DNA from: an uncultured Opitutaceae bacterium
GTDB lineage: Bacteria; Verrucomicrobiota; Verrucomicrobiia; Opitutales; Opitutaceae
Direction: 5' to 3'
Assembly: GCA_951813085.1 (NCBI GenBank)
Contig: OX638348.1
Location: 1,869,627 to 1,933,626, forward strand
Length of the DNA stretch: 64,000 nucleotides
This document shows positions 1-56,578 of the stretch, in pieces. How positions within the stretch are numbered: position 1 is the stretch's first letter; every line of letters begins with the position of its first letter. The notes beneath the pieces are model-generated. The model was not told the DNA's origin, did not search any database, and was given only the letters and a program-made list of their open reading frames with translations. A program made the position numbers and the translations under genes.

Positions 1-1867
1 AACCGAGAACGAGAGCGTCGCCTCCGCGCCCTCGCGGAAAGAGACCGCTGATTCCAAACTGACCAACTGAGAGATCGAAGCTCCTTCAAACAGTTACACC
101 ACGCCTCGAAATCCGAGAGGGCTGTAAATTAATCGAAGTTCGCTATCTCGAGGAGGGCTCCATCGATACCAGACCGTATTACCCGCCGCTCCTGCAACTA
201 CCTGCTCAACCTCCTCGCTCGTGGCCAATGCCGTCGTTCCCGAGTCCTCGCCACTCGCACCCTCGATTGTAGTCGCGTTGGAAAATGCGTCGTTCACCGG
301 AATATTGGTCAGCCCCAGTAACGCGCGATTTATATTGAGCCGACCTTTACTCAAACTGCTTTCAGCCAAACCGAACCTCAACTCAACCGCGTTCAGTAAA
401 CGATTGATATACCAGGAAGTCGAACGATTGGGCTCTGACTCCATTAGCAACGCCAGGGACCCTGCAACCAGGGGAGCTGCCATCGACGTGCCGGAAAACG
501 ACCGATAGGAACTGTCGCTCTCATTGTATGCGCTGGTCGCTTCACCCGGAGCAACGAGATGAACCAAGGAAGTATCGTAGTTGGAAAATCCGTACAAACT
601 CCCGTTTCCCTGCGATGCTCCGACCACCAGTTGAGAAGGAATTCGAAACGCAGCTGGATTGGTCGGGATCTCCGAAAGCCGATTCCCTTCGTTACCCGCA
701 GCCGTCACGATCAATATCCCTCCGACGCAAAGCCCTCTCAAGCGACTGGCTCCTCTCAGAGCCGCCCCAACTGTTGTTTATAATATCCGCTCCCTTTTCT
801 ATAGCGTAGTCGACACATTGGATCGCGTCCGACGTAGAGCCTTCTCCTGTCTCGTCTAGAAACTTTAGAGACATCAACTGGACATCCCAGGCTACGCCCG
901 CAATGCCGAGTCCATTGTTGCCCTTCGCGCCTAATATCCCAGCGACATGGGTTCCGTGTCCATCGTCGTCGTCGATATTTCCGTTGTCAGCAATCGCGTT
1001 GAACCCATGCAAATCGTCAATAATACCATTGCCATCATCGTCCACACCATTGGGGAATTCGCTCGGATTTCGCCACAAATTGTCACGCAAATCCTCGTGC
1101 GTCGCGCGAATTCCGGAATCAACCACCGCGATCACAATACTCGAGGCGTTCCTCTCTATATCCCACGCCTGGGGAGCGTCGATGTCTTGATTCAAGCCTC
1201 CAATCGAATCGCGTTGCAGATTCGATTGGAGTGAAAAATCGGGATCGTTGGGAATGAATGCGCTCGCTCGAACCAAATAGTCCGGTTCGCCGTACTCGAT
1301 CCAATCGTTCGACTCTGCCAAATTCTCGAGGAAAGGACGGAATCGCAACAAATCGTCCGCGCGATCGGTAGAAACTAAGCAAAGACTCCCCGAACTCGCT
1401 ATCGCTTCCACACCATATCCATGAGATTCGGCCAGCGACTCGAGCTCGCCGATTCTCGAAGGATCCGAGAGCCTAAGGAGATATTGATTGGCAATCGAAG
1501 TCGATCGAGACTCCAGCACCGGGGCCTGTCCACTTTCCTTGTACCGAAAAACCGAGTCAGTCCGGATATACCTGCCGGCAACGTTACGCGAATTTATCAA
1601 GATTTCCCTAAATCCGCCAATCATTGGAATTCGCGATTCCACCAATATGTCTCCATCGATTCCGGGTGCTTTCTCCAGATCGAACTCAACGCTAGTATCC
1701 GGATTGTCACCTCGAGATTCTTCTAATGAAGCTGAACCGGAATCGTCTTCCTCTAATGCTGGCACCCTCTTCGAATGATCGCTCGAATCGAACAAACGCG
1801 TCGAAACCCAAAACACGCTTGGAATCGAAAGCGCAATTAACAATGCGACTGACAACCGTTTATTCAC
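1..1867 (-). pseudogene. Subtilisin-like S8 serine protease, frameshifted and interrupted
   Basis: This is a secreted or membrane-anchored subtilase in pieces. The 5' part (1867 down to about 730, GTG start) has an N-terminal hydrophobic segment, then the catalytic Asp region (VVDSG), the His region (DGHGTHVAGILG) and the oxyanion Asn (INNSWGG). The reading then moves to another frame near 722-741, where GILIVTAAGNEGN and the catalytic Ser motif SGTSMAAPLVAG follow. That second frame ends at a TAA at 94-96, yet bases 93-1 still read in frame as a plausible continuation (LFEGASISQLVSL), like the beta-rich C-terminal domains that start with a NTVWYRW-type motif. So one frameshift and one nonsense codon are visible, and the gene continues past the window edge. 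The family is clear; whether it is a true pseudogene or has sequence errors is not. Confidence 0.85.
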
Positions 1868-1943
1868 TCAGTACTTATTCGCGAATGTCGTATATTGATC
1901 AAGCGTTTTTAGCAATTGCCCTTAAGGGCAAACAGCTAGTAGA

Positions 1944-2520
1944 ATGGTGCTCCATCAGAGATACCATCTCTGCTCTGTCAACTTCCGCGGAATAGAAGGC
2001 TCCCAGAAAAGGGTCGTCCACCCACCACTCTCAGTATTTCTATTAACCAAGAATCAGACTCTTCCAAGATCAGTCGCGTGGTCGATTATACTCCTCACTG
2101 GGATAAGCGCTTGCTCCGACATTCGACAATTCTTGAAACCCTTGACCGAGATGTCATTAAATATTAGATACGTCTCGGCAAGCGATGGCGACAACCACTG
2201 GAAAAAACGCAAGCAATTGGTGTTCGACGTATTCACTAATCACGCACCCGATGTTATAGGCCTGGAGGAGGCGCTCGATTTTCAATTCGACGCAATACTC
2301 GCCGAGCATCCCCAATTCGCCTCGATCGGAATTGGGCGCGGCCCCGGTGGACAGGGCGAGCATTGCGCTATCCTCTCCCGGAAAGACAGGTTTGAAATCT
2401 TGGAACAGGATACCTCTTAGTTGTCGGACACGCCTGAAACCCCCTCCACCAGTTGGGGGAATCAGCTTGTTCGAATCAGCAGGTACGCGCGCAGTTTTGA
2501 ACCCACTCTAGCGAACTGGG
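1944..2520 (+). pseudogene. Endonuclease/exonuclease/phosphatase-fold lipoprotein remnant
   Basis: The frame encodes a lipoprotein-like signal (IILLTGISAC, lipobox ISAC), then the start of an endonuclease/exonuclease/phosphatase domain: LNIRYVSASDGDNHW, a region with VIGLEEALDFQFD (the metal-binding Glu strand) and AILSRKDRFEILE. A TAG at 2418-2420 interrupts it; the same frame then continues with LSDTPETPSTSWGNQLVRI, which in this family directly follows a Trp (the usual pattern is FWLSDTPE). The TAG is therefore best read as TGG changed to TAG. After about 2510 the similarity is lost and the catalytic His and Asp of the C-terminal half are not found in any frame. The true start is unclear; the in-frame ATG at 1944 is used as the outer limit. 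Confidence 0.75.
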
Positions 2521-3422
2521 CCCCCCGGCACATGATCATGACCAGCCGTGACGCGAGGGAGAGGTTCGCGATCGGTTTCTTCGGCCACTCCAAGCACGTT
2601 TACTATCACCGTCCGAGCTCGCCATTCCGCCGAGTTAAGTTCAATACTGAGGGGACGAACATCGTCCGAAATCCCACCGCGGGTCAGAAGCTGCCACCAA
2701 ACCGCCGAAGTTATCTACAACCCAGTATCCGGTCGTATCGAGGTGCAGGAAACACCACTGGGACGGCGGGCCCGGCAAGACGGGGTCCGACCATCTCATC
2801 CAATCCCGACGAGGAACTCAGCTCGCTAAACCTGTGGAGCATCGAACCGGAGGCGCCTCTTGGCGGTAGCGCTAAACAGGGTTTCGACGGCACGGTCATT
2901 TAACGCATCGGCTATAGCCGAAAGGTCGGACGCGACGGCCCGCAACAGGGTGGGTCTATCATCTATACGCAACGGCACATGCAGCACATCCTCGTCTACG
3001 CGGATTGGTGCCGGTCGCTATCAAGCCTGTTCCGCATCAGCGGAACACTGGATACGGATCATTGGCATTCAACCACCACAACACGCTCAATTCACCTTGA
3101 TTTTCCATTGTTGTAACGGAAGTTTACATTGTCTAGTCGGTAACTTAACCCACTGATAATTAGCTGTTTAAATTCATGACTAGAGAAAACTAGCTACATT
3201 GTGTAAGAATACTTTACAAAAACGAATTCTGACCAGTTTCTATCGGGTGATTTTTTAGATAATTCAATTTTATTGAATTGTTGATTTTCAACATTTTGCC
3301 CAAGATTTTAATTGTGAGTCCCTATGTAATCATCGTTTTGGCGCACAATTAGCTAGTTTTGTCTCCGTCGGCGATCGCATGCGTTAGTCGACGAGTAAAC
3401 GACAACAATAATTCAAAAACCT
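2521..3422. other. Stretch without a recognisable gene
   Basis: From about 2521 to 3110 several overlapping short open frames exist on both strands, but none resembles a known family, and this may be decayed coding DNA belonging to the preceding remnant. From about 3110 to 3420 the DNA becomes clearly AT-rich and likely holds the promoter of the exported protein that starts at 3438. No convincing promoter boxes could be assigned. Confidence 0.5.
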
Positions 3423-3437
3423 TTGGAACACACGAAA

Positions 3438-4574: not shown

Positions 4575-4735
4575 CAGAAGCCCATTGCAACGACTCGACG
4601 ATAAACGATGCTGGGGTGCAGATTAGCAGCTTGTTGTCGGCAATAGCGGACGTCGCTACGCCCATATCGTCCTCGGCCAGTCGATTGACGCCGAGTATCT
4701 CGAACCATTTTCCTTCTTTGAACATCAAGCAGTCC
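4575..4735 (-). pseudogene. Duplicated 3' fragment of a PQQ-type beta-propeller gene
   Basis: The reverse strand encodes FEILGVNRLAEDDMG followed by a diverged copy of the last blade, nearly identical to the C-terminus of the intact beta-propeller gene at 8067-9410 (FEILGVNRLAEDDMG, then SPAIAGNKLLIRTS). The nucleotide match covers roughly 160 bases and includes sequence just beyond the stop codon. No full gene lies upstream, because the sulfatase at 4744 starts immediately. This is therefore a partial duplication or the leftover end of a second copy. Confidence 0.8.
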
Positions 4736-4743
4736 CGCGGGAT

Positions 4744-6249
4744 TCATTCCCAATCGCGACGCGGCTTGGGCAGATTACCCACCAATTTGGCTCCTTTGCG
4801 TTCCAACTCAGTCTTCATGCGATCGCGCATTTCATCCAGCGTGACTCGGTGAGCAGGATTCAACGCCAGATTCTCGAGCTCCCTCGGGTCGGCCTCGATG
4901 TCGTAGAGTTCCTCTATCTCATCAGGAACCAAAGTCGCAATGTACTTGTACCTTCCGCTCCGCAAGAAGATCCACCAATCGATACCTTGATTCGGATTCG
5001 GTTGGGTAAGACCTACATCCGTACGGTCGCCAAACGCCATACTGAAATTCTGCTGCAGAATTGCCCGGTCCCACTCCTTCGATCTGCTCTCCATCAACGG
5101 ACGAAGCGAGTCGCCGTGCATCTCCCACGGCAGTTCGATTCCTGCGTAGTCGAAGAAAGTCGGAGCCAAATCGATCGCGTTCACCGGCGACTCCACAACT
5201 CGACCCGCAGACTGCTTGCCCGGCAGTCGCACGATAAATGGCACTCGAATGTTGTCGTCGTAAGGAGCTACCTTGATCTCCATTCCATGATGCCCCATGG
5301 CCAGCCCCTGATCCGAAGTGAAAACGACCAACGTGCTTTCCAATTGCCCCGTTCGCTCAAGCGTATCCATCAAATCCTTAACGCCTTCATCGATCGATAG
5401 CACGCCGCTATGGTACTTGCGCGTTAATTCGGACAAGGTTAGCCCCAAGCGCTCATCCACCGGTTCGCCCTTCTCATTAGGTTCGAACATGGCGTAGTCT
5501 CGCATGTACTTGGGCTTGGTAGGTCTAGGGGGATAAATATCCTCGGGCACCTCGATCGGTCCTGCCTGATCATAGGCCCCCGCATGTCGATCGGCGGGCG
5601 TGAATGGCGCGTGTACCGCATCGTAGCACAGCCAGAGCATCCAGGGCTGCTCGTGGTCGCGCTCGATGAAGTTCTGGGCATACCGCGTATAGTTATCCGT
5701 CGAGTGACCGAGGACCGGCGTGAAATCTCCCCCATCGAATCGGAGCTTCTGATCCCGGAAATAGCTTCCAGACTTTTCGTATCCAAGTCGCTCCCAAATG
5801 ATGGAGTGATCCCAGACCTTGCCATGCGCATAGTCCGATGCCAAATGCCATTTCCCGATAACGGCAGTCGTGTATCCGTTTTTTCGAAACGTTTCCGGCC
5901 ACATCCGGAACCGATTGAGATCCTGCTTGATCAATGGATACTCCGAGAAGTCGAGGCCATCAATGCCATGGATGTACTTTCCGGTCAGGACCATAGCCCG
6001 ACTCGGCGCGCACCAAGGGCCAGCAAACGCATGCTTGAACCGGATGCCCTCTTCCGCTAGCCGATCGATATGCGGCGTATTAGCCCAGGAAATCGCATCC
6101 TCGTAGCTCGAAACCGTGCGGTGAGATTGGTCATCCGTGAAAATGAACAGAATATTGGGTCGCTCGGAAGCGGAAGCTTCTAGGGAGATAAACAGGAATA
6201 AAACGAATAACGGCAGAACATTCACTGTATTCAACAAAGGATCAACCAT
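4744..6249 (-). CDS. S1-family sulfatase (secreted)
   Basis: A formylglycine-dependent sulfatase of about 500 residues that would hydrolyse sulfate esters on carbohydrates. After a signal peptide the mature chain begins with the metal-binding strand RPNILFIFTDDQ. The Cys to be converted to formylglycine lies in WCAPSRAMVLTGK (C-x-P-S-R), followed by IGKWHL and the second metal site VVFTSDQGLAMGHHG. The start at 6249 is preferred to the upstream ATG at 6294 because it gives a compact signal peptide (MVDPLLNTVNVLPLFVLFLF). It lies 90 bp downstream of another sulfatase on the same strand, probably in one unit with the rhamnose genes further upstream. The exact glycan substrate cannot be read from the sequence. 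Confidence 0.92.
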   Translation of the reverse strand: MVDPLLNTVNVLPLFVLFLFISLEASASERPNILFIFTDDQSHRTVSSYEDAISWANTPHIDRLAEEGIRFKHAFAGPWCAPSRAMVLTGKYIHGIDGLDFSEYPLIKQDLNRFRMWPETFRKNGYTTAVIGKWHLASDYAHGKVWDHSIIWERLGYEKSGSYFRDQKLRFDGGDFTPVLGHSTDNYTRYAQNFIERDHEQPWMLWLCYDAVHAPFTPADRHAGAYDQAGPIEVPEDIYPPRPTKPKYMRDYAMFEPNEKGEPVDERLGLTLSELTRKYHSGVLSIDEGVKDLMDTLERTGQLESTLVVFTSDQGLAMGHHGMEIKVAPYDDNIRVPFIVRLPGKQSAGRVVESPVNAIDLAPTFFDYAGIELPWEMHGDSLRPLMESRSKEWDRAILQQNFSMAFGDRTDVGLTQPNPNQGIDWWIFLRSGRYKYIATLVPDEIEELYDIEADPRELENLALNPAHRVTLDEMRDRMKTELERKGAKLVGNLPKPRRDWE

Positions 6250-13429: not shown

Positions 13430-14617
13430 TTATGCATAGGCCGTTTCCGATTTGATGCCCAGGGCTTTCCGACGTTTCGCGCGCTCGCTTGCGATGCGCT
13501 CGCCGTAACCGCTCTCGCGATAGGCGCGCAGCGGATCCGCATCGATTCCTTTTGAAGCTCGCCATTCAGACAGCAAAGGATGGACATTAGTATGAAATGC
13601 CGACTTGAGCGCGTTCTCGGCATCGACAATCGCGCCCGCTTGCTGGAAACCCCGCAACGCATCCCGATCTACCAATGCCGCCTTTAGCCACAAGTCTTGA
13701 GCCGTCGTCACCGTCTGGATCATCGCTTCAATCTTCGGCTTCAAATTGTGCGACTGATCAACCATGTACGCAATATCCGGGTACTTACCGCATTCATTCG
13801 CATAAGCATGGATTTCGCAGAAAATTCGGAAAATTTGATACGGGTCGATGGACCCGAGAGTCAGGTCGTCATCCGCATAGCGTCGATCGTTGAAGTGAAA
13901 TCCTCCCAGCATATCTTCGTCCAGCAACCAGGCCACGATTTGCTCAATGTTCTGTGACATATAATGATGCCCCGTATCGACCAGCGTCTTCGCCTGCGGC
14001 CCCGCGTCCTTGCACAGTAAATACGACATACCCCAGTCCGCCACGTCCGTATGATAAAATGCCGGCTCGAAGGGCTTGTACTCGACCAGCATGATCTGCT
14101 CGAGCGACAACTTCGCATGGCAGGCCCTCAGCCCTTCTTGAAAGCGGCGCTTGCGCTCGCGAATGCTATCCTGCCCCGGATAGTTCGTCCCATCCGCAAA
14201 CCAAAGCGTGAAGTACGCGCTATCCACGTCCTGTCCGAGCTGAATGCAGTCGAGGCAATGCTGCAGCGCCCGCTGGCGAATCGCTGCATCCGGATTTCCG
14301 AACGAACCCAGCTTGTACTTCTGATCCTGAAAAAGATTGGCGTTGATGGATCCAATTCTGATGCCGTTCTCCGTAGCGATCTCGGCAACTGTTTTCGGAG
14401 TTTGGCTTTCCGAAAAGTCCCAAAGAACATGCACGGCAACCGTGGGGCAACACGCTGTGACCTCATTGACCTTGCCTGCATCGGCGAACTTATCCGCTGT
14501 GTCGATCGCAGCGCCCTCCTGCAGGAACTTCCCAAAGCGCGTCCCCGTATCGGCGAATCCCCACGATGGCAGCTCGATCTTCAATTGATCCAGCGATTCG
14601 ATAGCAGCGTCACTCAT
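13430..14617 (-). CDS. rhaI: L-rhamnose isomerase (RhaI / sugar isomerase type)
   Basis: A TIM-barrel isomerase of 395 residues that converts L-rhamnose to L-rhamnulose with two divalent metals. It belongs to the RhaI type (like the Pseudomonas stutzeri enzyme), not to enterobacterial RhaA: the N-terminus reads ELPSWGFADTGTRFGKFL and the metal-binding region has LVEYKPFEPAFYHTDVADWG, TLVDTGHHY and GGFHFNDRRYADDDL. First gene of the minus-strand operon rhaI-rhaDE-rhaB. Its start is 72 bp from the divergent AraC regulator gene, so the short gap between them probably holds both promoters and the regulator site. Confidence 0.95.
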   Translation of the reverse strand: MSDAAIESLDQLKIELPSWGFADTGTRFGKFLQEGAAIDTADKFADAGKVNEVTACCPTVAVHVLWDFSESQTPKTVAEIATENGIRIGSINANLFQDQKYKLGSFGNPDAAIRQRALQHCLDCIQLGQDVDSAYFTLWFADGTNYPGQDSIRERKRRFQEGLRACHAKLSLEQIMLVEYKPFEPAFYHTDVADWGMSYLLCKDAGPQAKTLVDTGHHYMSQNIEQIVAWLLDEDMLGGFHFNDRRYADDDLTLGSIDPYQIFRIFCEIHAYANECGKYPDIAYMVDQSHNLKPKIEAMIQTVTTAQDLWLKAALVDRDALRGFQQAGAIVDAENALKSAFHTNVHPLLSEWRASKGIDADPLRAYRESGYGERIASERAKRRKALGIKSETAYA

Positions 14618-14689
14618 GATCGCATACTAGCGATCCCTTGACTCAAAAGCCATCGACATACCGGCAATTAATATACATATTCTGACACT

Positions 14690-15586
14690 ATGTCTGCCCG
14701 CACATTCGTTTACCATTCGCCCAGTACCGAGAATTCTCTTTGGAACCTCGAAGTCCTAGGTGCGGGAATCAACGAAATCTTGCCCAACCAGGCCTATCCC
14801 CCTGCCGGTCATCCCCAAGAGTACCAATTCGATTGGGATCGCGGGCGCACGCTCTCCACCTTTCAAGCCCTCTACATCACTCACGGATCTGGCGAATTCG
14901 AGTCCGAGAGTATCCCTATTATCAAGATAGAGGCCCCGGTTCTTTTCCTCCTTTTTCCGAATAGTTGGCACAGGTATAGACCACGGCTAGAAAAAGGCTG
15001 GCGAGAGCGTTGGATTGGGTTCGACGGCTCCGCTCCTCGGCAATTGCGAGACAACGGAGTCATAGACCCGAAAGCCCCATTCTACGAGGTGGGACACCAT
15101 GCAGGCATACTGGATCATTTTCGTTTGGTATTTGAAGAGGCTCGTAACGAAGCCTTGGGATTTCGACGGATCGCCGCTACATCCATTTTGCAAATTCTGG
15201 CCCTCGCCACAAGCCTGCCGCTGCGACAAGCTGAGGAAGGCCAACCCATGCGGGCCGTCGTTCGACAAGCGAGTTTCCTGCTGAGGGAACGAGTGGACGA
15301 GATCGTATCCATGGAAGCGCTCGCGGCGGAGATGAATGTCGGCTACACCTACTTCAGACGCATGTTCAAGCGCTACACAGGGTTCAGCCCCAAGCAATAT
15401 CACAGTCAGCAACGATTCGAGCGCGTCAAGCGGCTGCTTCAAGAAACCTCAATGCCGATCGGCGAGATCGCCGCTCTCTTATCCTTCGATTCGACTTTCC
15501 ACTTGTCGGAATGGTTCAAGAAACGATCCGGAGCCTCCCCATCGAGCTGGCGCAAGCAGCGAATGTCCATCGCTCAATCCAGATGA
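14690..15586 (+). CDS. AraC-family regulator, probably rhamnose-responsive
   Basis: A 298-residue activator with an N-terminal cupin-like sugar-sensing domain (residues about 20-170, including LYITHGSGEFES and LLFPNSWHRYRP) and a C-terminal double helix-turn-helix (residues about 200-290: MEALAAEMNVGYTYFRRMFK and IGEIAALLSFDSTFHLSEWF). It is divergent from rhaI and convergent with rhaM, which it overlaps by 13 bp at the 3' end. By position it should sense L-rhamnose and activate the flanking operons; this is inference from context, as the ligand cannot be read from the sequence. Confidence 0.88.
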   Translation: MSARTFVYHSPSTENSLWNLEVLGAGINEILPNQAYPPAGHPQEYQFDWDRGRTLSTFQALYITHGSGEFESESIPIIKIEAPVLFLLFPNSWHRYRPRLEKGWRERWIGFDGSAPRQLRDNGVIDPKAPFYEVGHHAGILDHFRLVFEEARNEALGFRRIAATSILQILALATSLPLRQAEEGQPMRAVVRQASFLLRERVDEIVSMEALAAEMNVGYTYFRRMFKRYTGFSPKQYHSQQRFERVKRLLQETSMPIGEIAALLSFDSTFHLSEWFKKRSGASPSSWRKQRMSIAQSR

Positions 15587-24849: not shown

Positions 24850-24852
24850 TAC

Positions 24853-26199: not shown

Positions 26200-26203
26200 A
26201 TTA

Positions 26204-34754: not shown

Positions 34755-34790
34755 TCCTTATCCTTTCTTAAAATTTACTTGTATCCAAAT

Positions 34791-35927
34791 TCAAACGTCG
34801 ACCCAACGGCCATCGGCGGCGCTTTTCACCACCGCTTCGCAAATCTCGAGTTCCCGATGGCCGTCCTCAAACGTGGCGAAGTCCCTTGTCCCTTGATCGC
34901 CTGCAGCGATGCAATCGTAGAAGGCCCGAAAGCACATCTTGAAAGAGTCCGGATAGCCTTCCGCGTGTCCGCCCGGATAATCCGTAAACCGCTGGGCCGC
35001 TTCGCTATTCAAGCTCGGATCTTTCAACAGAATCGCGTTCGCTTCCACGCGCGACCCGATCGCAATCTGATTCGGATTCTCGCTGTCGAATTCCAAGCAC
35101 GCCTTCGATCCCGAGATCTCGTAGCGAAAGCAATTCTTCTTGCCAGGAGTCACCTGAGAAGCGAACAGCATGCCGCGGGCGCCGCTCGCGAAACGAAAGG
35201 TCAAGCAACCCATGTCGTCGGTCGTGATCGGCACGCTCTCCGTCGCTTCCACGCCCCCCAGCTTGCCCGAAAACGTCTCCACTTCTCCCTGCGGACGCTT
35301 TCGCGTCTCGTGCACCGTCTTCAAATCAGCAAACACCTGTACGATCTTTTCGCCCGTGATGAATTGAATCAGGTCGATCCAATGGGTGCCGATATCCGAC
35401 ACCGCCCGCAAGGCGCCTTGCTCCTCGGCCAGCACCCGCCAGTTGTAGTCCGTATCGAGAAGCAGCCAATCCTGCTGATAACTGCCGACGATGCTATGCA
35501 CTTGGCCGATATCGCCTCGGGCGACGCGTTCTTTCGCTTCGATGCTGAGTGGATAGAACCGCGTGTTGTAGTTCACGCCCGCAACCAGCCCTTTTTCCAT
35601 GGCTAAATCGGCGAGCTCCCGCGTCTCAGCAGCGTTCATCGCCAAAGGCTTTTCGCACATGACATGCTTTCCGGATCGCATGGCATCCATCGCTTGCGAA
35701 TAGTGCAGGCGATTGGGCGTCGTGATGTGCACGGCATCGATCTCGTCGTCCGCAACCAAGGCCTCCCACAAATCGTAGGCCCGTGGAATCTCCAGGCGCT
35801 CTGCGGCCGCCCGCGCCTTGTCGGGCGTTGAGCCTTGTATCCCAACAAGCTCCACTCCCGGCAGACGCTTCAATGCCTCCGCATGGACGGCCCCCATGAA
35901 TCCTGTTCCTGTAATCGCAACGTTCAT
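34791..35927 (-). CDS. Gfo/Idh/MocA-family NAD(P)-dependent oxidoreductase
   Basis: A 378-residue enzyme. The Rossmann motif is VAITGTGFMGAVHAEAL at the N-terminus, followed by DAVHITTPNRLHY and the catalytic Lys motif CEKPLAMNA typical of the family (E-K-P). The C-terminal domain has SDIGTHWIDLIQFITGE. It would oxidise or reduce a sugar or cyclitol. The ATG overlaps the stop of the upstream epimerase-like gene by 4 bases (ATGA), indicating translational coupling. No signal peptide: a cytoplasmic step in the same pathway. Confidence 0.92.
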   Translation of the reverse strand: MNVAITGTGFMGAVHAEALKRLPGVELVGIQGSTPDKARAAAERLEIPRAYDLWEALVADDEIDAVHITTPNRLHYSQAMDAMRSGKHVMCEKPLAMNAAETRELADLAMEKGLVAGVNYNTRFYPLSIEAKERVARGDIGQVHSIVGSYQQDWLLLDTDYNWRVLAEEQGALRAVSDIGTHWIDLIQFITGEKIVQVFADLKTVHETRKRPQGEVETFSGKLGGVEATESVPITTDDMGCLTFRFASGARGMLFASQVTPGKKNCFRYEISGSKACLEFDSENPNQIAIGSRVEANAILLKDPSLNSEAAQRFTDYPGGHAEGYPDSFKMCFRAFYDCIAAGDQGTRDFATFEDGHRELEICEAVVKSAADGRWVDV

Positions 35928-36757
35928 TTCTTTTCCAATACTCGTTTAGGATCGCCCTCGAATCCTGCGCTAGCAAAGCCACCGCCTACGACACCTTCCT
36001 CGATCGAATCCAAATCGGGTGATTCCTCAAGCACGCTTTCGTCCGCTACATGGTCGATGGATCGATCCAGGGGACGATACCCGAGTCGATACGCATTGCT
36101 ATTGTCGAAAAAACGGGGCTCTGGCGTATCCGAAATTCCATAGACAATTTCATGACCTAAGTTCGGATACGAGAAGCCAATCTCCACCAGCTGCATCAAG
36201 TCCCGAGGACTGATCCAAGTCCGCAATCGCCTTTCCTTGCTCAAGTCATTCCCCACATACCCGATCCGAATGGAAAGCGTATCCATAGCAAAGTTATCGG
36301 CATAGTAGGCGGCCAGCGCCTCACCATAGACCTTGCTCACTGCATACTCCGTATTCGGACGCAACGGAGCCCGGTGATCCACCGATTCACCCCTTGGAGT
36401 GAACCCGACCACATGATGCGTACTCGCGAACGCGATGCGTCGAATGCCTGCTTGGCGGGCCGCCTCGAATACATTGCGCGTCCCCACGACGTTCGCGCTC
36501 ACGCTCAGGTCATAGTCGAAATTCGCCCCCACCTTGCTTCCAAAATGAGCGATCGCTTCGACGCCTTCCATAGCCTTCGACACGGCTGATAAATCGCTCA
36601 AGTCGCATTCGACGAACGTCTCGTTCTCCGCAAGGTTTTTCACTGGCGCGATATCGCTCACGACAACGTCTGAGAACTTCTCTCTCAAAAGCGGCCTCAA
36701 CGATGTACCAACAATTCCAGCGGCGCCTGTTAGGAGTATGCGTGTGGGGAAACTCAT
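35924..36757 (-). CDS. NAD-dependent epimerase/dehydratase, uronate dehydrogenase-like
   Basis: An extended short-chain dehydrogenase of about 277 residues. The cofactor motif is ILLTGAAGIVGTSLRPLL, and the catalytic pair is in NTEYAVSKVYGEAL (Y-x3-K). Size and the segments FASTHHVVGF and SIRIGYVGND resemble uronate dehydrogenases, which oxidise galacturonate or glucuronate; this specificity is a suggestion only. The start at 36757 is preferred over an upstream start at 36865, which would overlap the sulfatase gene and add a non-homologous extension. First enzyme of the catabolic run after the sulfatase. Confidence 0.85.
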   Translation of the reverse strand: MSFPTRILLTGAAGIVGTSLRPLLREKFSDVVVSDIAPVKNLAENETFVECDLSDLSAVSKAMEGVEAIAHFGSKVGANFDYDLSVSANVVGTRNVFEAARQAGIRRIAFASTHHVVGFTPRGESVDHRAPLRPNTEYAVSKVYGEALAAYYADNFAMDTLSIRIGYVGNDLSKERRLRTWISPRDLMQLVEIGFSYPNLGHEIVYGISDTPEPRFFDNSNAYRLGYRPLDRSIDHVADESVLEESPDLDSIEEGVVGGGFASAGFEGDPKRVLEKK

Positions 36758-38551: not shown

Positions 38552-40786
38552 ATGATCTCCAACAAACCTCGCAGATCGCTCGGTCCCCTTCTAGTCGCAT
38601 TCCTCATGACGTCTCAACACGCTAAGGCAAACCACCCATCTGCCCAATGGGAAGAGATTCCTGAAGCTCTGGAAAATCCGGCCCTCATCACCCTGCAGGA
38701 CGTGATCGATGAGAAAGCGATCCCAGTGGAAAAGGAAGCCCAGCAAGCCTGGCGCCCCAAAGGGGCGAGTTGCCTGGTGCTCGAAACGTCCGAGTCGATC
38801 GATGGAGGCAAGGACCTCTTCGATTGGAATCCGGAAACCGATTCAAAGACCTTGTTGCTGTCCGCAGAAGCGTTTATCCTGAACGGCGAAGAGAAGCCGC
38901 TCGAACCGAAGGACTAAGGGCATCTCAAATGGTCTCCTGACGAGACGAAGCTCCTTATCTACACGAATACGAAGAAGGTCTGGCGCGCGAATTCCCGCGG
39001 CGACTACTGGGTATTGGATCTCGAGACCCAAACGCTGCAGCCGCTCGGCGCTGATTTCGAACCCTCCACTTTGATGTTCGCCAAGTTCTCTCCGGACTCG
39101 AAGCGGGTGGCCTACGTGCAAGATCGAAACATCTACGTTGAAGATCTTAAAAGCGGGCGTATCCGTCGTCTCACCACGCGACCGAAGGACAGCATCATCA
39201 ACGGAACCACGGATTGGGTCTACGAGGAGGAGTTCCAAATCCGCGACGCCTTCCAATGGAGTCCGGATGGAAAATCCATCGCCTACCTGCAGTTCGATAC
39301 GGAGGGAGTCGGCGAGTTTCACCTGACCAATTATCTAGCGGGCAAATACCCCGAGGTCCTGCCCTTGCCCTACCCGAAGGTCGGCACGACTAACTCCTCC
39401 GCGCGAATTGGCGTTACAAGTTCCTCGCGAGCTCGCACGCGCTGGCTCGATGATCTTGCCGGCGATCCACGCCAACACTACATCCCGCGATTCACCTAGG
39501 CCGACAGTTCGGAGGAACTCGTCTTTCAGCGCTTGAACCGCAACCAGAACGAAAACGTCCTTTGGATGGCGACGGTCAAAACGGGAGCGCTGAACCCTTT
39601 CTTCACCGAACGGAGCGATACCTGGATCAATGTCCATAACCACATGACCTGGTTCGACAATGGCCAATCCTTCCTTTGGCAAAGCGAAGAGGACGGCTAT
39701 CGACACTTCTATCGCGTCACCCGCGATGGAACGGAAAAGACATTGATAACGAAAGGCGACTACGACGTCGTCCAAATGCTGAAGTTCGACACGGACAACG
39801 GCTGGCTCTACTTCATCGCCAGCCCGGACAATCCGACCCAACGCTACTTGTTTCGCGAGCGTATCGACGGCATGGGCCAAGCTGAGCGGTTGACGCCCCA
39901 TGAACCGAGTGGTACGCATTCGTATCGGATTTCCGGAGACAGTTCGCTAGCCTTTCACAGCTTCTCCAACGCAAATACCCCACCCTCATACGACCTGGTC
40001 GAGCTGCCAAGCCATCGCGTGATTCATACCGGAGAGGACAACGCTGCCGCCCGGGCCAAGATGGATGAGGTCAATTTCCAGAAGACCGAGTTCTTCCAAA
40101 TCGACATCGGCCAAGGAGTGGAGCTGCCCGCCTACATCATCAAGCCCTACAATTTCGACCCGTCAAAGAAGTACCCCGCCCTGTTCTACGTTTACGGCGA
40201 GCCCGTAGGACAGACCGTTAGGGACGTTTGGAAGAAGAGCCTATGGCGTCACCACCTCCACCACAATATCGGCATCTACTCCTCCGAGGACCAATCAGCC
40301 GCCGTACGCAAGCTCCTCGAAACGCGCCCTTACATCGACGCGGATCGCATCGCAGTCACCGGTTTCAGCGGCGGCGGCTCCATGAGCCTCAACCTTCTCT
40401 TCCGCTACCCCGACCTCTACAAGCTGGCTATGGCCGGCGGATTCATAAGCGACCAGCTCCTCTATGATACGGTCTATCAGGAACGTTACATGGGACTGCC
40501 CGAGCAAAATCCGGAAGGATACAAGAACGGCTCCCCGATCACCCACGTAGAGAACCTGCAAGGACACTTGCTCATCTATCACGGCACGCAGGACGACAAT
40601 TGCCACTACCAGAATTTCGAGAACTTGGTACAGGCTCTTATCAAGCACAACAAGCAGTTCAAGGCCGTGCCCTACATCGGCGGCACCCACGCCTTGAAGT
40701 CAGCGGGCGACGGCCAAGGGACCGCCCACAATCTCAAGACCAAAACATGGTACCTGATGAACAACATACCTCCAGGAGCCAGATAG
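38552..40786 (+). pseudogene. S9-family dipeptidyl peptidase IV-like enzyme with two in-frame stops
   Basis: A secreted prolyl-oligopeptidase-family peptidase of about 745 codons, with signal peptide at the ATG 38552, an eight-bladed propeller domain (N-terminal DPP IV region: LKWSPDETKLLIYTNTKKVW, DAFQWSPDGKSIAYLQFD) and a C-terminal alpha/beta hydrolase. The nucleophile Ser is at codon 606 in VTGFSGGGSMSL; the Asp is in YHGTQDDNCHY and the His in IGGTHAL. The frame is never lost, but a TAA at 38915-38917 (codon 122) and a TAG at 39497-39499 (codon 316) interrupt it. The TAG is at a position where relatives have Trp (IPRMxWAD; here IPRFT-stop-AD). All catalytic parts remain, so decay is recent, or these are sequence errors. 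Confidence 0.88.
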
Positions 40787-45655: not shown

Positions 45656-45804
45656 AAAGTACAAATTCTCTACCTTTTAGAATCTTCTGCCTAACAACCG
45701 CAACCGATGCCCTGGGACTTCCTAAGAGTGGTGCGCAGGATCGCACCACATAGAACCGTTGCTGAGTTGGACTAGCCTGCGCAAAGCGCCACACTGAAGC
45801 TGCC

Positions 45805-48800
45805 ATGTTTCTGTCCGCCCCCATACGAGCCTCCCTGCGCTGGATAGTGAGCATTGGGATGCTTGCCTCTTCTAAGCTGCTTGGTCAGGAAGTTGAATTC
45901 GCCACCGAGCTGGCTCCCATCCTCGAGAAGAAATGTCTAAGCTGCCACAATCCCAATTTGATGAAAGGCGATCTTTCGATGGCCACTTTGGAGGACATTC
46001 TGGGGGCCGATCAGGATATCCTAAAACCGGGGAACTCAGCGGATAGCGCCCTCCACTGGATAACCGTAACCTTGGAGGAAGGAGAGCCGCCCGAAATGCC
46101 GCAAGAAGGGGAAGCGCTCACCGAGCAGGAGGCAAATCTCCTAGCAGCTTGGATCAATGCCGGGGCCGAGTGGCCCGATGGCCTCGTCTTGCGAGAAGCA
46201 TCCAAGGCCGACAAATCCTGGTGGGCCTACCAACCGCTATCAAAAACGCGTCTCGAATCCATCGATGCCTATGTTGTGGCCACGCTTCAGGAAAACGGGC
46301 TATCGATGAACCCGCCAGCGGAACGGCGCAGCCTGATACGCCGCGCTACTTATGACCTCACCGGCCTGCCTCCTCCCCCAGAGGAGGTGGAAACTTTCAT
46401 AAACGATTCCGATCCGCTGGCCTACGAGGCGCTCATCGATCGGCTATTGGCATCCCAACACTATGGTGAACGCTGGGGTCGGCACTGGCTGGATGTGGTC
46501 CGTTTCGCCGAGAGTGGAGGCTACGAGCACAACTTCTTCGTCTACAACCTCTGGCCCTTCCGCGACTACGTGATTCGATCGCTCAATGAAGACAAGCCGT
46601 TCGATACGTTTATCCGAGAGCATCTTGCCGGAGACGTATTGGGGAAGGGAATACCGGACGTGGAAATCGGAGCTGCTTTCCTAACTGCTGGTCCGTTCGA
46701 AAGAGCCCCCAACCAGGAACCCGCTCAGGCGGCTCAGACTCGGCCCAACCATCTCAATGAAATCATCAATGCCACCGGGGAAGCCTTCCTGGGGATGACT
46801 CTCGGATGCGCCCGCTGCCACGACCACAAGTTCGATCCGGTCAGCCAGGAAGATTACTACGGGCTCTATGCCACCTTTGCAGGCGTTCGGCACGGCTCCG
46901 TTCCCTGGACGACCCCAGAAGCCAAGCAATCCTATTCCGATAAAACGCGTCCGCTCGAGCAACGATTGACCGAACTGAATTCGGAACTGAAGTCACTGCA
47001 AGCGGACATCTTGCAAAGAGCTCAGGATAATCGCTCCGACCTAGAAAAGCAGGGACCCATTGGGCTCTGGTTCGGGAAGGATAAAATAAGGTTCCTTGAG
47101 CAATCTGGCCTTGATGTTTCCCCAAGGACCGCTGGGATCGTTCACTAGATCGAATTGCGTGTTTACCGATTCGCGTACTTCCCTCCGCAACAATCACTCA
47201 TCTGCGACTGATTACCCCAAGGTTGTACTGTGCCTCGGCCACCCCCTGCTCGGCGGATTTGCGATACCACCTAACGGCTTCCTTGTCGTCCTGCAAGACG
47301 CCATCGCCGAAGCTGTACATTACCCCAAGGTTGAACTGTGCCGCGGCGTCCCCTTGCTCGGCTTTCACTTTAGCCTCCTCAAAGGTCTGGCCCGAAACCC
47401 AAGTGGTGGCAATAAGGGCGGCTAGGATTATCAGAACCTCTTTGGGCAGCATGATCCGTTTATACTCGCGCCTTCGCGTCGAAGGCAAGGCGAAATCTCC
47501 GATAAGCTGAATCTCGCGCCCTTTGCCTCTTAGCAGCAGGAAACCGGCCTTGAGAGGACGTTTCCCTATTTGAAACTAGCCGCTCTGACGCTTGACTCCC
47601 CGCATCCGATTCCTACCGCGGAGATTCTCTTGTTCCAGGGCTCTGCTAGGCCCTTCCGGAAAATCCAACCCAAAAGCGTTGGCAGCGGCCACCCGTTGAC
47701 CGTCGCGGGACTGAGGAACGATTCGCGCCCGTTCAAGCCAAATTCGTCCGTTTCGTATGCGAGTCCCAGGATTTGGACCTGTTCAGGAATAAGGGGCACA
47801 AGCTTGACGAATTTGAAATTTGGTCGGCGGGTGATTCTCCGCGCAATGTAGCGCTCTCCGTCAACGGAGGAAAAGCCTCCGGAAAATCAAGGGTATCCGA
47901 AGAGCTGCCGGAATTGTACACCGCCCAACGCGCCATCGATGGCGACTACGACAGCCGCTATTATGCGGATGGCCCCGAGCTCACCATCGAGCTAGCTGAG
48001 CCCACCTGGATTGACAAAGTCGCTTTTTCCAGCGCCCGCGTGGGAGGAGCGCCCGAGCACACGAAATATTTGTTCGTGGCCGAATACCGGATCGAGGTTT
48101 CCCTGGATGGCGAATCGTGGACGGAGGTAGCCCATGGTCGGGACCGACTTCCTGTGCCGAAAAAATACGCCAATCCAAACCGGGATGTTAAGCCAAAATT
48201 CATAAGTCATTTGCACTATCGGCGTATCCAATTGGGCAAGACGAAGGAGGAAACACTGACCGAGCAAAATCTCCGGGCTGAAATCACGCGCCTGAACGAG
48301 CAGTTGGACAGAATCGAACCATTGCCGACGGCATTTTTGGGAAGCCGATTGCCCGAAGATGCCCAAGGACCCTTCCGCATTTTCATTGGTGGCAGCCCCC
48401 AAAGACAGGGATACGAGGTCGCTCCAGCCAGCCCGTCCACTCTCGACCAAGTAACGCCGGGCTACCGATTGGAAGGAGAGACCGACGAATCGAAACGACG
48501 CCTGACCCTGGCGGAATGGATCACTCACCGGGATAATCCCCTAACGCCTCGCGTTCTGGCCAACCGCATCTGGCAATATCACTTTGGCACCGGTATTGTG
48601 GATACGCCAAATGATTTGGCTACATGGGCGGTCGACCGACGCACCCCGAGTTGCTGGATTTTCTGGCAAGCCAGCTAATCGAGAACGACTGGCAGCTGAA
48701 AGCCATACACAAACTGATTATGCTCTCCGATAGCTATCGCCAAAGCTCAGCTTGGAGCTGGGACAGCGCGCAAATGGATGCAGACAGCCGCCTGCTCTGG

Positions 48801-49328
48801 CGATTTCCGCCAAGGCGACTCACAGCTGAAGAAATTAGGGATACCTTTCTTACTGTGTCAGGTAAATTGGATACAACTATGGGCGGTCCTGGGTTTCGTC
48901 TCTACGATTTTTGGCTGGATACGGTGACCACCTATGTACCGCTCGATGAACACGGCCCTGAAACCTACCGCCGGGCCATCTACCATCACAACGCCCGCGC
49001 CTCGGTAGTGGACCTAATGACGGATTTCGATCAGCCCGATTGTACGCTCTCCGCGCCACGCCGCACGCAAACTACGACTCCCTTGCAGGCGCTCACCCTG
49101 ATGAACCACAGCTTCACGCGTGATATGGCCGACTATTTTGCTTCCCAAGTCCATGAACAGTTTCCTGAGGATACGGAGAAACAGGTACAGACTGTTTCCC
49201 AGATCGCCTACCAGCGTTCGGCGGACGCGGGGGAACTGACCCAGTCCACCGAATTGGTCCAAGAACACGGGTTGCGAGCGCTCTGCCGCGCCATCCTCAA
49301 CTCCAGTGAACTCATCTATCTGAACTAG
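45805..49328 (+). pseudogene. PSD1/DUF1549-DUF1553 cytochrome c domain protein, interrupted and frameshifted
   Basis: A large secreted protein in three pieces. The 5' part (45805-47148) has a signal peptide, a heme site KKCLSCHNPNLMKGDLS, the DUF1549 domain (RLLASQHYGERWGRHWLDVV, GGYEHNFFVYNLWPFRDYV) and CARCHDHKFDP. The reading then leaves the family between about 47100 and 47690, where unrelated DNA with part of a Sel1-repeat gene lies on the other strand. The family resumes in the same frame with ERFAPVQAKFVRFV (the discoidin-like domain) and continues through DUF1553. Near 48615 a frameshift moves DLATWAVDRR into MGGRPTHPELLDFLA; one missing G after GATTTGG would restore DLGYMGGRPTHPE. 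The C-terminus is complete. The gene pairs with the DUF1501 gene 8 bp downstream. Confidence 0.88.
47198..47452 (-). pseudogene. 5' fragment of a Sel1-repeat protein inside the DUF1549 gene
   Basis: The ATG at 47452 opens a signal peptide (LPKEVLIILAALIATTWVSG) followed by one full and one partial Sel1-like repeat (AEQGDAAAQFNLGVMYSFGDG and AEQGVAEAQYNLGV), then the frame ends after a few residues. Sel1 proteins normally have many such repeats, so this is only the beginning of a gene. Just upstream (47470-47486) is a perfect 7-bp hairpin with a 3-base loop. The piece lies within the interrupted DUF1549 gene and most likely came in with the inserted DNA. Confidence 0.78.
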
Positions 49329-49336: not shown

Positions 49337-50782
49337 ATGAATGAAAACCCAGAGCAGTATTCGCGGCGCCGTTTTTTTGGAAATGTGACAACGGGGCTTA
49401 TGGGCGTTGGGTTGAGTCATCTGCTGAGCGCGGAAGGGCTGCATGGGCAATCCACGGCGCCGGCCTGGCAACCGGGCAGAAATCGTACTCACCACCAACC
49501 GCGGGCCAAGCGCGTACTGCAGATTTTCTGTCCTGGCGCGGCGTCCCAAATCGATCTCTGGGAGCATAAACCCTTACTTCAAAAGTACGACGGCAAACCC
49601 TTGCCGGGCGAAGAGGATTTCCTCTCATTCCAGGGCAAGAACGGCGTCATCATGGGTTGCCCCTAGGAATTCAAGCCAGCCGGTCAAAGCGGTAAGATGA
49701 TCTCCTCGATGCTGCCGCATCTGTCCCAGCACGTGGATGACATGGCCTTTTTCCATGCCATGCAGTCCAAGTCCAATACCCACGGCCCGGCCTGCATTTT
49801 CGCCAATACCGGTCATCCCACGGAAGGGTTTCCCAGCGCAGGCGCTTGGGTCAGCTACGCCTTGGGAAGTTTAGCTGACGACTTGCCAACCTATGTAGCG
49901 CTTCCAGACATACGCGGGGAACCTCCCAATGGAAAGGCCAACTGGAGCAACGGCTTTCTTCCCGCCGAGCGCCAAGCGATCGCCATGGCGGCGCATCAGC
50001 CAATCCGCAATATTCAACTACCGGAAGGGATTGGCAAAGCGGAAGAGCGCCGCACGCGGGATCTGCTTCACTACCTCAATGAAAAGCATGCCGCCTCCCA
50101 TCCGGGAGAAACGGAGCTACAGGCTCGCATGAGCGCCTACGAATTGGCGGCCCGCATGCAGCTTTCCGCGCCGGAAGTCAGCGACTTCAAGAGCGAACCT
50201 CGGCACATTCATCAGCTCTACGGCACGGATTCACCCAACACGCTCAAGGCAGCCTACGCTAGGAACTGCTTGCTTTCGCGTCGCTTGCTCGAACGGGGCG
50301 TGCGTTATGTGAACCTTTTCTGCGCCTCCCGATCCAGTGGCGCCGATGGACTTCTGAATTGGGACGCCCACAAAACGCTGAAGTCCGACTACGAACGGCA
50401 CCTCCCGATATTCGATCAGCCCACCGCAGCCCTGTTGACCGATCTCAAGCAACGCGGTTTGATGGAAGACACCTTAGTCTTGTGGACGACCGAGTTTGGC
50501 CGTATGCCCACTCGTCAAATTGGCACCGTCGGTCGTGATCACAATCCTGACGGGTTCACCCTTTGGATGATGGGCGGCGGCGTGAAAGGAGGAACCAGCT
50601 ATGGAGCCACCGACGAGTTTGGACGCCGAGCCGTGGAAAATCCCACCAGCATCTGGGAATTTTATTCTACCGTCCTGCACATCCTCGGCCTCGATTACGA
50701 GCAACTGTCCTATTACCACAATGGCCTGGATCGCCGCCTAACCGATGTCCACGGACACGTCATAAGAGAGGTACTGGCATAG
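49337..50782 (+). pseudogene. DUF1501-family protein with an in-frame TAG
   Basis: A 482-codon protein of the DUF1501 family (related to the sulfatase/alkaline phosphatase fold) with a Tat-like start (SRRRFFGNVTTGLMGVGLSH), the typical KRVLQIFCPGAASQIDLWEHKP region (two motifs, KRVLQIFCPG and QIDLWEHKP), MSAYELAARMQLSAPEV, GVRYVNLFCAS and the C-terminal TTEFGRMP, GRDHNPDGFTLWMMGGG and GATDEFG. A TAG at 49664-49666 (codon 110) interrupts the frame at GCP-stop-EFKPAGQSGK; relatives read PWEFKPAGQSG, so this is a Trp codon changed to stop. Everything after it is intact. It is the usual partner of the DUF1549 protein upstream, and both are broken. Confidence 0.88.
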
Positions 50783-51641: not shown

Positions 51642-51864
51642 AACAGGAAAAAAAGCCGCCACGGCCGATCTTGCGAGTAAAATGATCCTAAGGAGACAGA
51701 AGGAACAGATGCAAAATCAATAGCTGTCTTGACGAAAGCAACAGCCTGAAGGAATCCGATCCCCTTCCAGGTTGAATCCTCCGTCTCGAGCCTGTAGGCA
51801 GCTTTCTACATCAATTGGGGTCAATCGACTTTCCAATCAATTTGCGAAAATTCATCAGCCTTAA

Positions 51865-52542
51865 ATTACGATTTATCTGCCGCCGGCAAAGATCGCTACT
51901 GGCGCAGCTGTGGTCGTGATTCCGGGAGGCGGCTTTCGTTCGAATTGGATTACGCACGAGGGCTATCGTGTGGCCGATTGGCTTGCCGCGAGGGGTATCG
52001 CAGCCTTCGTCTTGAAGTATCGTCTCGAACGGGACGCGGGCTCCGACTACTCGACGATGGAGCATTCGCTGGCGGACGCCCAACGCGCCATTCGAACCGT
52101 TCGCAGCCGAGCCGCTGAGTGGTCAGTGGATCCCGAACGCATCGGCGCTATTGGATTTTCCGCAGGGGGCGTGCTTACCGGGCTCACAGGCGCGTACTTC
52201 GATAGGCCCGTGAACAAGCGAGCCGACGCGATCGACGACCTAAGCGCCAAACCCGCATTTCTGGGTTTAGTCTATGGTTCCCCATTCGGTCCTACGAGTT
52301 CTTGGAAAGCGCCGATACGGGAGGACCTGCCACCCGTCTTTATGATCGCGGGCGGGGATGACCGGATCGCGGAATCCTATCCCGAGATTTATCTGCAGCT
52401 CAAGGCCACGGGTGTTCCAGCCGAGCTGCATCTTTACGCCGGCGTCGGTCATGGTTTCGGTATTCAAGACAGAAATACGCCTGCCGTGGCGGGCTGGATC
52501 GACCGATTCTACGATTGGCTGTTCACTCAGGGTTTTCTGTAG
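51865..52542 (+). pseudogene. Alpha/beta-hydrolase (acetyl-esterase-like), 5'-truncated
   Basis: The frame encodes most of an esterase: ITIYLPPAKIATGAAVVVIPGGGF (read as ITIYLPPA and AAVVVIPGGGF with the oxyanion loop), nucleophile GAIGFSAGGVL, the Asp strand MIAGGDDRIAESY and the His GVGHGFGIQ. In the family this core is preceded by a signal peptide and about 30-50 residues; here a TAA at 51862-51864 lies just before the first strand and nothing upstream matches. The only in-frame start, GTG 51910, would remove the first strand. The gene is therefore a 5'-truncated remnant with an intact catalytic triad. Confidence 0.72.
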
Positions 52543-53729: not shown

Positions 53730-53812
53730 ACACGCGAATCGTTTACCCCTCAAGGCATCGATCCGACTTGCAGCCAAATGCGGAACTCAGCAATCAGTAG
53801 GTCCTAAGATCA

Positions 53813-54448: not shown

Positions 54449-55949
54449 TCCAATTCGATTGCGGAAAGCGCGAGCGTCCTTGTCGCTGCTTGAACGCCTG
54501 CATAGCTACCTTGCGCTCTTCAGGACTCAGTTCTCCGTCCCCGTCGTCCTTGTCGAATTGCGCGATCGCGCGCTGCATGAGCTGACCTTGATTTTGGTTG
54601 CCGCGTTGGGAGATTCGATTCCTCCGGGAGTTTTGCGATGCTTCCGCTGAATGATTTCTGATCTCCTTTCGAAGCGCATTGAATTCATCTGGATTGGCAG
54701 CGACGACTTGCAAGGTAACGCTACCCATCTCGTCATCGGACTCCCTCCCTCATCGGACCCGTTTTGGCGGGACGTTTGGATTGTTGAAATTATCTTCGGA
54801 ATTATCCCATACCACCTCCGAATCCAGTCGCGTACCCGCTGGAAGAGAAATGTATCCATCAAATCGATAGCTTTCCTGCCAGGAAAAGTCCCAATCGGGA
54901 ATGGTCATCAGCTCTTTGACTTCGCCGCCTGGCAAGGTTGCGGTCATCGACATGCACTTGCCCAAGTAGTGGGCATGGGCGCTGATTCCGAACGCTTTCA
55001 CGTCCACCGGAAGCACGAAGGAATCCGTCTTCGTATAAGCGCTGTCGCCAGCAGGGATATTGATTCCCGCTAAGGCTCCGAATACTGGCGGCAACTGAAT
55101 GCCTGTAAAGCGCTGCGAAGGCGGCTCATCCGCGAAGTAGAAACCGACCGTCGAAACTTCCGTCTCTTCTTTTCCTGATGGGTGAAAGTGAGTCGACAGA
55201 ATCAAGTCAGAACCCTTAGGCAGGCGATAAGCCAGGCCATCTGGAAGCATCTTGGGAGTACCTCCCAGCGCCCAACCGCCGATAGCGCCTCCTCTTTCCG
55301 TACCTCTTCCCATAGTCTTGAAGCCGGGAACTGGATCAGCCGCATCTCTCTGGCGAGCATCGCCGCTGGTATCGTAGTAAAAGAGCGAGTGGTGCACGAC
55401 CGAACGGACGCCTGGACGAAACTTGATCGCTTGTATCCACTTGTCCTCGTCAAGATTTAGCGGAACGACGAAATTCCGGTAGATGTCCGGCCCTTCCGCG
55501 TAAAGCGTATACCCTTCCTTCATGCTGACGACTAGATCCGGCTCGCCCAACTGCCATCCCCCGGTGAACTTCGGAAGCGCTGGGAGCTTCGACGAATCAC
55601 CCTCGGCCATTCCGCTCTCTACCCAGTCGCTGATCAGCGCAACCTCGGTCTCGGTAAGCCCTCGGTGATCCTGGAATACATAGTCCTTGGACTGCACGTG
55701 CCAGGGAGGCATGTAGCGATCTTCAACCACCGTAAGGATCAGCTCACCGCGCTTTTGCACGTCGCGGTAGTTCAATAATGAAAAGGGAGCCGCTTCTTTT
55801 GACCTATGGCAAGAGGCGCAATTCTCGAAAACGATGGGCGCGATATGTTCGCTGAACGTGATCGTCTCTGCGGAACGAGCCGTACTACCCGCGAACGAGG
55901 TGGCCAGCAGAACGGTTGCGACTAGGCAGTGATGAATTCGTTGTTTCAT
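54432..55949 (-). pseudogene. Cytochrome c / copper monooxygenase-like protein with EF-hand tail, interrupted by TGA
   Basis: The ATG at 55949 opens a signal peptide (CLVATVLLATSFAGSTA), then a heme c site FENCASCHRSKEAAPF with LLNYRDVQKRGELI and YMPPWHVQ, followed by a beta-rich region like the ascorbate-dependent copper monooxygenase fold (VRSVVHHSLFYYD, DLILSTHFHPSG, FGISAHAHYLGK, all with His residues suited to copper). A TGA at 54750-54752 interrupts KRVR-stop-GRESDDEMG; relatives have Trp here, so TGG to TGA. The frame continues without a break to an EF-hand-like segment (QFDKDDGDGELSPEE) and ends at 54432. It starts 17 bp after the redoxin gene, its natural partner. Confidence 0.85.
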
Positions 55950-55966
55950 AATAGTGAATACGGCAG

Positions 55967-56578
55967 CTATAAATTTGGAATATAGCACCCGACTGCTTGC
56001 GTTCGAACACGGTCGATCGCCTCATTTTGATCAATCGAGTTCAAAGCGCTTCGAAGGTCCTTTTCGGTTATCACGCGTCGCCGGTTTCCTAGAGAGGGAT
56101 ACATATTGTCGATCCGACCGCGATAGGCGATCGCTCCATCCGGTAGCGTCACCACAGCTTCCGGGGTGACCCGCGCCCCCGTCGCCTTCACCAAGTCATG
56201 GCGCCTATCGGCGATAGCGACATAACCGGTCAGGCTATAGGCTTTCATATGCTCTGCGATCTCATTCCGGGAGACGTCCGGATCGACATAGACCAAAGTC
56301 AGGGCAAAGCCCTTGGAACCAAACTCCGATCTCAAGCGGGCCATCTCAGGAGCATAAGCGTTCGATATCGGGCAATCCTGGGTAACGAAAAGCAGCACGG
56401 ATGCTTTCGCCTCATCGAGCTGGAACGGAGCTCGTTCCTGTCCCTCGATATCCAGAATAGAGACCGAGGTATCCTCGACTGCATCCGGGAGCGCTTTTTC
56501 CCCTGCCGTCGCAATCGCGCCTAAGCACGAGAGCGCTAGGCAAACGCCGATGGAGCAATGATTTTTGAAAACGCGCAT
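55967..56578 (-). CDS. Redoxin (AhpC/TSA-like thioredoxin-fold protein)
   Basis: A 203-residue exported protein with a signal peptide and a thioredoxin fold. VLLFVTQDCPISNAYAPEM carries a single Cys followed by Pro, as in peroxiredoxin-like redoxins found next to the cytochrome/monooxygenase genes; FALTLVYVDPDVS, TPEAVVTLPDG and AVGCYIPNL are further family segments. No second Cys forms a CxxC pair. It is followed after 17 bp by the monooxygenase-like gene, the usual order in this phylum, so they form an operon. Confidence 0.87.
   Translation of the reverse strand: MRVFKNHCSIGVCLALSCLGAIATAGEKALPDAVEDTSVSILDIEGQERAPFQLDEAKASVLLFVTQDCPISNAYAPEMARLRSEFGSKGFALTLVYVDPDVSRNEIAEHMKAYSLTGYVAIADRRHDLVKATGARVTPEAVVTLPDGAIAYRGRIDNMYPSLGNRRRVITEKDLRSALNSIDQNEAIDRVRTQAVGCYIPNL

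Follow-up and report, generated by a model that had tools for sequence, protein, structure and literature searches.

Probable decay of accessory genes alongside insertion sequence multiplication on an uncultured Opitutales-like chromosome

Introduction

Verrucomicrobial genomes in the course of decay have been described before. 'Candidatus Thermopylae lasonolidus', a verrucomicrobial sponge symbiont, has a genome of 4.85–4.93 Mb with ~16% pseudogenes, which was read as early genome reduction (PMC9600693). Here we examine a stretch of 64,000 nucleotides (the window; positions 1,869,627–1,933,626 of contig OX638348.1) from the single-contig genome of an uncultured Opitutaceae bacterium (4,852,771 bases, or 4.85 Mb; 97% complete). 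A first-pass annotation had listed about a dozen window genes with single lesions, and had left the choice between gene loss and site-specific sequence error. Most of these genes prove to be broken where same-genus homologues are open. We take them mostly for genuine pseudogenes, part of a genome-wide decay of accessory genes alongside multiplication of insertion sequences (IS), and put the probability of this reading at roughly 0.83.

The present genome resembles 'Ca. Thermopylae lasonolidus' in being verrucomicrobial, in its size and in its many pseudogenes. That symbiont differs in its family, AAA164-E04, and in having only 6–15 transposase genes (PMC9600693); unlike it, the present genome has no known host or metabolite cluster. 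The tunicate symbiont 'Candidatus Didemnitutus mandela', likewise verrucomicrobial, is described as having truncated genes, low coding density and ongoing degradation, but at 2.68 Mb it is more reduced and carries repeated polyketide clusters (PMC5698493). Many pseudogenes are also found in Sodalis glossinidius, a recently host-restricted bacterium, where they reach almost 50% (PMC7067036), compared with 17/98 testable genes in the present genome's stretches examined. A literature search found no paper on IS expansion together with pseudogenes in this Opitutales group.

With a one-contig genome and same-genus relatives at hand, old gene deaths can be distinguished from fresh ones. Annotation based on open reading frames (ORFs) will present pieces of the S9, DUF1549 and DUF1501 genes as if each were a protein in its own right. 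Beyond its value for dating and annotation, the case appears to be one of gene decay in progress, of an ordinary and known bacterial kind, rather than a special locus.

Genomes compared and approach

The window's own genome (G000) was compared with ten other genomes of the same genus (G001–G010), and lesions were checked by aligning the relatives' open ORFs onto the window. A script scored genes with a same-genus homologue of at least 45% identity. Most of the relatives' loci were chosen for matching the window or control stretches; neither L068, picked for a DUF1549 paralogue, nor L045, picked for a Sel1 locus, is a random sample. A codon-model frame decoder picked up just one frameshift across the window, because the coding signal is weak at a guanine-cytosine content of ~53%, and was dropped in favour of homology.

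Among named records, in a comparison that may omit records very close to the window's own genome, the closest DUF1501 genes belong to metagenome-assembled genomes titled Opitutia, Opitutaceae, Opitutales or Verrucomicrobiales, and the nearest record is isolate 287ce (93% identical over the 361-residue DUF1501 query). It was compared at one 11.8-kb locus only (L092, JAABVD010000103.1).

Genes broken by stops, insertion and deletion

The lesions that carry the argument lie in the following features.

1944–2627, plus strand: exo/endo-phosphatase-fold gene; stop at 2418, 3′ half missing
23328–26070, minus strand: M56 peptidase gene, interrupted by an insertion of ~1.76 kb
23679–25449, no strand: DNA inserted in the M56 gene, in parts 73–83% like four other chromosomal places
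26068–26268, minus strand: remnant of a BlaI-type repressor gene; stop at 26115, joined to the remains of the M56 gene
38588–40786, plus strand: S9 peptidase gene (DPPIV_N and Peptidase_S9); stops at 38915 and 39497
45781–49328, plus strand: DUF1549/DUF1553 gene; insertion, and one-base frameshift near 48615
47048–47673, no strand: DNA inserted in the DUF1549 gene, with two dispersed chromosomal source places
49337–50782, plus strand: DUF1501 gene; stop at 49664
54483–55988, minus strand: copper-monooxygenase-like gene; stop at 54752

For all of these genes, as for the double PRC-barrel gene described below, the first-pass lesions are borne out by alignment of relatives' open homologues. The S9 frame is open from 38588 to 40777 except for TAA at 38915, where all three relatives compared have glutamine, and TAG at 39497, where all three have tryptophan; ORFs of 762–801 residues encode this peptidase in six same-genus genomes. 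Tryptophan is likewise found opposite TAG at 2418 in the phosphatase-fold gene (4/4 relatives), opposite TGA at 54752 in the monooxygenase-like gene (3/3), whose Pfam match to Cu2_monoox_C lies under the family cut-off, and opposite the single TAG of the DUF1501 gene in three of four relatives, the fourth having phenylalanine. Homology of the phosphatase-fold gene also fades at 2489–2627, and the relatives' ORFs run to 300–351 residues.

Two genes have received inserted segments. In the DUF1549/1553 gene an insertion between 47052 and 47671 adds ~627 bases, and the frameshift farther on reflects a single base missing from a T run. The insert is composite: 47048–47210 is 97.5% like G000:1946617–1946779, and 47211–47673 matches, in inverted orientation and at 98%, the 5′ end of a Sel1-repeat gene near G000:2737071–2737533. 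Remnants of IS1595-type transposases lie ~0.1 and ~0.3 kb from these two source places, and the insert likely derives from an eroded IS1595-associated element. At this source place (G000:2736031–2738634; L045:8031–10634) the Sel1-repeat gene, which has about ten 108-base repeats, is flanked on one side by the remnant of an IS1595-type transposase and on the other by a related 142-base piece, an arrangement resembling a composite element. Integron sites were an alternative reading of the 142-base repeats, discarded because Pfam shows IS1595-type transposase remnants there. Among matches to PF07587, 29 in the own genome, an inner TGA interrupts the window locus, and a further locus (2965959–2966746) is split into two open frames. 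No rates were drawn from a genus-wide census of PF07587 and sulfatases, as high-scoring intact copies are favoured among the matches listed.

Placed against a relative's open homologue, the M56 insertion lies between 25450 and 23678. The first-pass annotation had called the stretch near 23890 virion-like; it is instead this inserted DNA, whose family is scattered over the chromosome, with four further places (L082–L085) holding partial copies. In PHROGs, ORF 23797–24849 has no match and ORF 24853–26067 matches only families of unknown function. In the adjoining BlaI remnant, TAG on the minus strand at 26115 stands for glutamine in G009, the sole relative compared. The two remnants abut in the window, fused through loss of ~0.78 kb that separates the matched parts in G009.

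Both hosts of inserted DNA are troubled elsewhere. The homologous part of the G009 M56 gene (L086) is open, but an in-frame stop of its own lies farther upstream, and the 287ce DUF1549 gene (L092:6212) is open except for one in-frame TAG at a site unlike the window lesions; both genes therefore fail in relatives too.

Mutation type and constraint

All six well-aligned window stops, at tryptophan or glutamine positions, fit G:C-to-A:T transitions. Of 657 nonsense changes that could arise in three reference genes, 157 are of this type, so that six of six has P=0.0002 under equal rates and 0.05 under a fivefold bias. The stops at 39497 and 49664 both lie in a CCTAGG context, and the ancestral site was probably CCTGG at each. 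A CCTGG context is prone to methyl-cytosine deamination and also to methylation-linked base-calling error.

A comparison of broken with intact genes gave a divided answer. Unique replacements at otherwise invariant sites, relative to the mean relative and resting on 3–7 relatives per gene, are raised 6.7-fold in the DUF1549 gene (287ce left out) and 5.6-fold in the phosphatase-fold gene, whereas the ratio in six intact genes is 0.64–3.8. These two genes have thus lost constraint and are long dead. Constraint is kept in the S9 (1.26), DUF1501 (1.17, lowered by inclusion of the near relative 287ce) and monooxygenase-like (0.69) genes. The S9 and monooxygenase-like genes therefore died recently, and the DUF1501 gene probably did so too; broken at single sites, such fresh cases may possibly be miscalled instead. 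For the PRC and PocR genes and three intact genes, relatives were too few for the ratio to be judged.

Lesion rates and mobile DNA

In the window the script flags 10/32 genes, or 8/32 once two artefacts are removed (13433–15031, with stops upstream of the gene start, and 34642–36077, an antisense shadow ORF). To these is added a truncated PocR regulator, which the script does not score; the S8 and esterase-like genes fall outside the 32. Three control stretches (L037, L047 and L050), picked before their lesions were known, give 5/30 raw and 3/30 without two artefacts. In 18 further own stretches the figures are 7/37 and, without one artefact, 6/36, these six being script calls without individual inspection. 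The control rows dropped, for similar reasons, were L037:14926, L050:755 and L036:8474.

In the relatives the same script flags 26/436 genes: 3/141 in G009, 6/57 in G010, 1/64 in G002, 10/40 in G006, 2/34 in G003, 2/26 in G001, 2/17 in G008, 0/18 in G004, 0/27 in G005 and 0/12 in G007. These 26 flags, many of them artefacts by eye, were left uncleaned in Fisher tests of raw counts, in which both the window (p=4e-5) and the own controls (5/30; p=0.04) exceed the relatives. As expected of a genome at an early stage of erosion, the pseudogenes bear mixed lesions and have open copies in relatives. Mean cover by ORFs of at least 300 residues is 0.62 in 17 own samples and 0.74 in 60 G009 stretches (p=0.005). 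In a DUF1501 census that scored the best 100 first-look candidates per genome, the own genome has 32 matches, two with inner stops (one being the window's) and two more loci in pieces; matches with inner stops number 0/31 in G009, 0/28 in G001 and 1/34 in G002.

IS expansion, likewise expected of early erosion, was found. An IS3-like element (HTH_Tnp_1, rve) occupies at least 27 loci on the chromosome and an IS256-like element (Transposase_mut) at least 16, both lower bounds from scoring the best 27 first-look candidates per genome; each of the three control stretches holds a high-copy IS. The closed genome G010 has three places like the IS3-like element and one 43-base match to the IS256-like element. 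Among the loci counted, none of either element lies within the window, which is not notable because only 0.57 would be expected.

Weighing the explanations

Genome-wide decay would proceed by gene death through G:C-to-A:T nonsense changes, small indels, deletion and insertion of element-derived DNA, some genes (S9, monooxygenase, probably DUF1501) having recently died and others (DUF1549, the phosphatase-fold gene) being long dead; the driver would be relaxed selection or drift, perhaps following a niche change. Several findings weigh against this picture, or against the own genome standing apart. Most relatives are drafts of 20–810 contigs, from which multi-copy IS easily drop out. The flag rates of G006 and G010 are high for relatives, and ORF cover in six targeted G010 stretches, at 0.57, is lower still than in the own genome. 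In G010, likewise a single contig, 4/23 DUF1501 matches carry inner stops, against 2/32 in the own genome; decay of this family is at least as marked there, which weakens the exceptional status of the own genome. Nor do the S9, DUF1501 and monooxygenase-like genes show any replacement excess. That most stops and frameshifts are instead assembly consensus errors, miscalls at methylated or repeated sites, is unlikely, though it would suit these same three genes, whose single-base stops come without loss of constraint, as well as the two CCTAGG contexts and the missing base in a T run of the DUF1549 gene. It would also suit a conserved response regulator gene (L047), 90% identical to that of G009, with an inner TAG where relatives have serine or threonine. 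Error fails as the sole cause because insertions, deletions and lost constraint lie beyond it: two insertions have chromosomal sources or copies, sequence is lost beside BlaI/M56, the PocR and phosphatase-fold genes are truncated, and two genes have lost constraint. Open long genes are numerous, the genome is 97% complete, and two stops fall within one gene. Between the first-pass alternatives, loss is thus backed by insertions, deletion, uneven constraint and lesions and IS elsewhere, while error may account for the single-base stops without constraint loss (S9, monooxygenase, DUF1501, BlaI).

A local concentration of gene loss in the window, within an otherwise sound genome, is improbable. 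The window's point estimate is higher (8/32 broken, against 9/66 in the other own stretches), but with p=0.25 no hotspot is proven; the window was picked for its visible lesions, and its 8–23 kb and 28–37 kb parts are clean. Reading through the stops, with TAG or TGA decoded as tryptophan or suppressed, is highly improbable. Three TAG and one TGA among the six well-aligned stops stand at tryptophan positions, and the S9, DUF1501 and monooxygenase-like genes retain constraint; against this, two stops are at glutamine positions, frameshifts and insertions occur in this genome as well, and TAG is the commonest terminator. Among ORFs of at least 300 residues in own stretches, 96/211 end in TAG, 60/211 in TGA and 55/211 in TAA, and stop-codon reassignment was rejected. 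Genome-wide accessory-gene decay thus remains our preferred explanation. A more specific version is tentative: a marine Opitutales-like lineage early in genome reduction, in which IS expansion and a G:C-to-A:T flow would kill secreted hydrolases and cytochrome-type genes that most same-genus relatives keep open. If so, gene deaths could be dated one by one against the relatives.

Other lesions, intact neighbours and minor observations

Four further genes carry proposed lesions.

1–1867, minus strand: S8 peptidase gene; frameshift at 720–728, weaker in-frame stop at 94–96
26835–27630, plus strand: double PRC-barrel gene; frameshift at 27163–27167
27649–28503, minus strand: PocR-domain AraC-type regulator; C-terminal truncation against relatives
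51820–52542, plus strand: esterase-like gene; in-frame TAA at 51862, 5′ part missing (weak)

The S8 frameshift holds, identity to relatives being ~50% to one side of it and 35% to the other; the in-frame stop is weaker because it sits in a tail of 30–35% identity that extends beyond the window's left edge. The double PRC gene is open in a same-genus homologue and frameshifted in the window. The PocR lesion is a truncation, the final 23–24 residues of two relatives being unmatched. The esterase-like lesion is weakly supported, its two homologues being only 38% and 30% identical.

Two other first-pass lesions were not confirmed, as no homologue was found among the relatives' loci compared: that at 20380, where the DUF4062 Pfam domain is matched over 2–82 of 82, and that of a beta-propeller fragment at 4735. 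At 4725–4810, where a sulfatase gene has its 3′ end, lie 86 bases that recur at 95% identity ~10.8 kb away, outside the window to its left (G000:1863503–1863588; L040:13877–13962), with unlike flanks. The neighbouring operons had been called intact; window genes with homologues at 8–23 kb and 28–37 kb are indeed lesion-free, including the TonB receptor at 21057 (the two artefact rows excluded), and three genes at 31–38 kb fall outside the homologue comparison.

Elsewhere on the chromosome, a TonB-type gene near the L047 response regulator (G000:3220045–3223118; L047:45–3118 for this locus) has an inner TGA at a tryptophan position, and a further gene in L039 has TAG at a tryptophan position; in the relative G001, a TonB-type gene is also flagged with TGA at tryptophan. 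At G000:109958–112354 (L032:9958–12354), four 91–94% identical repeats of ~130–140 bases surround ORFs that, named by eye, resemble thymidylate synthase and dihydrofolate reductase; the repeats were set aside, also by eye, as intergenic palindrome-like repeats.

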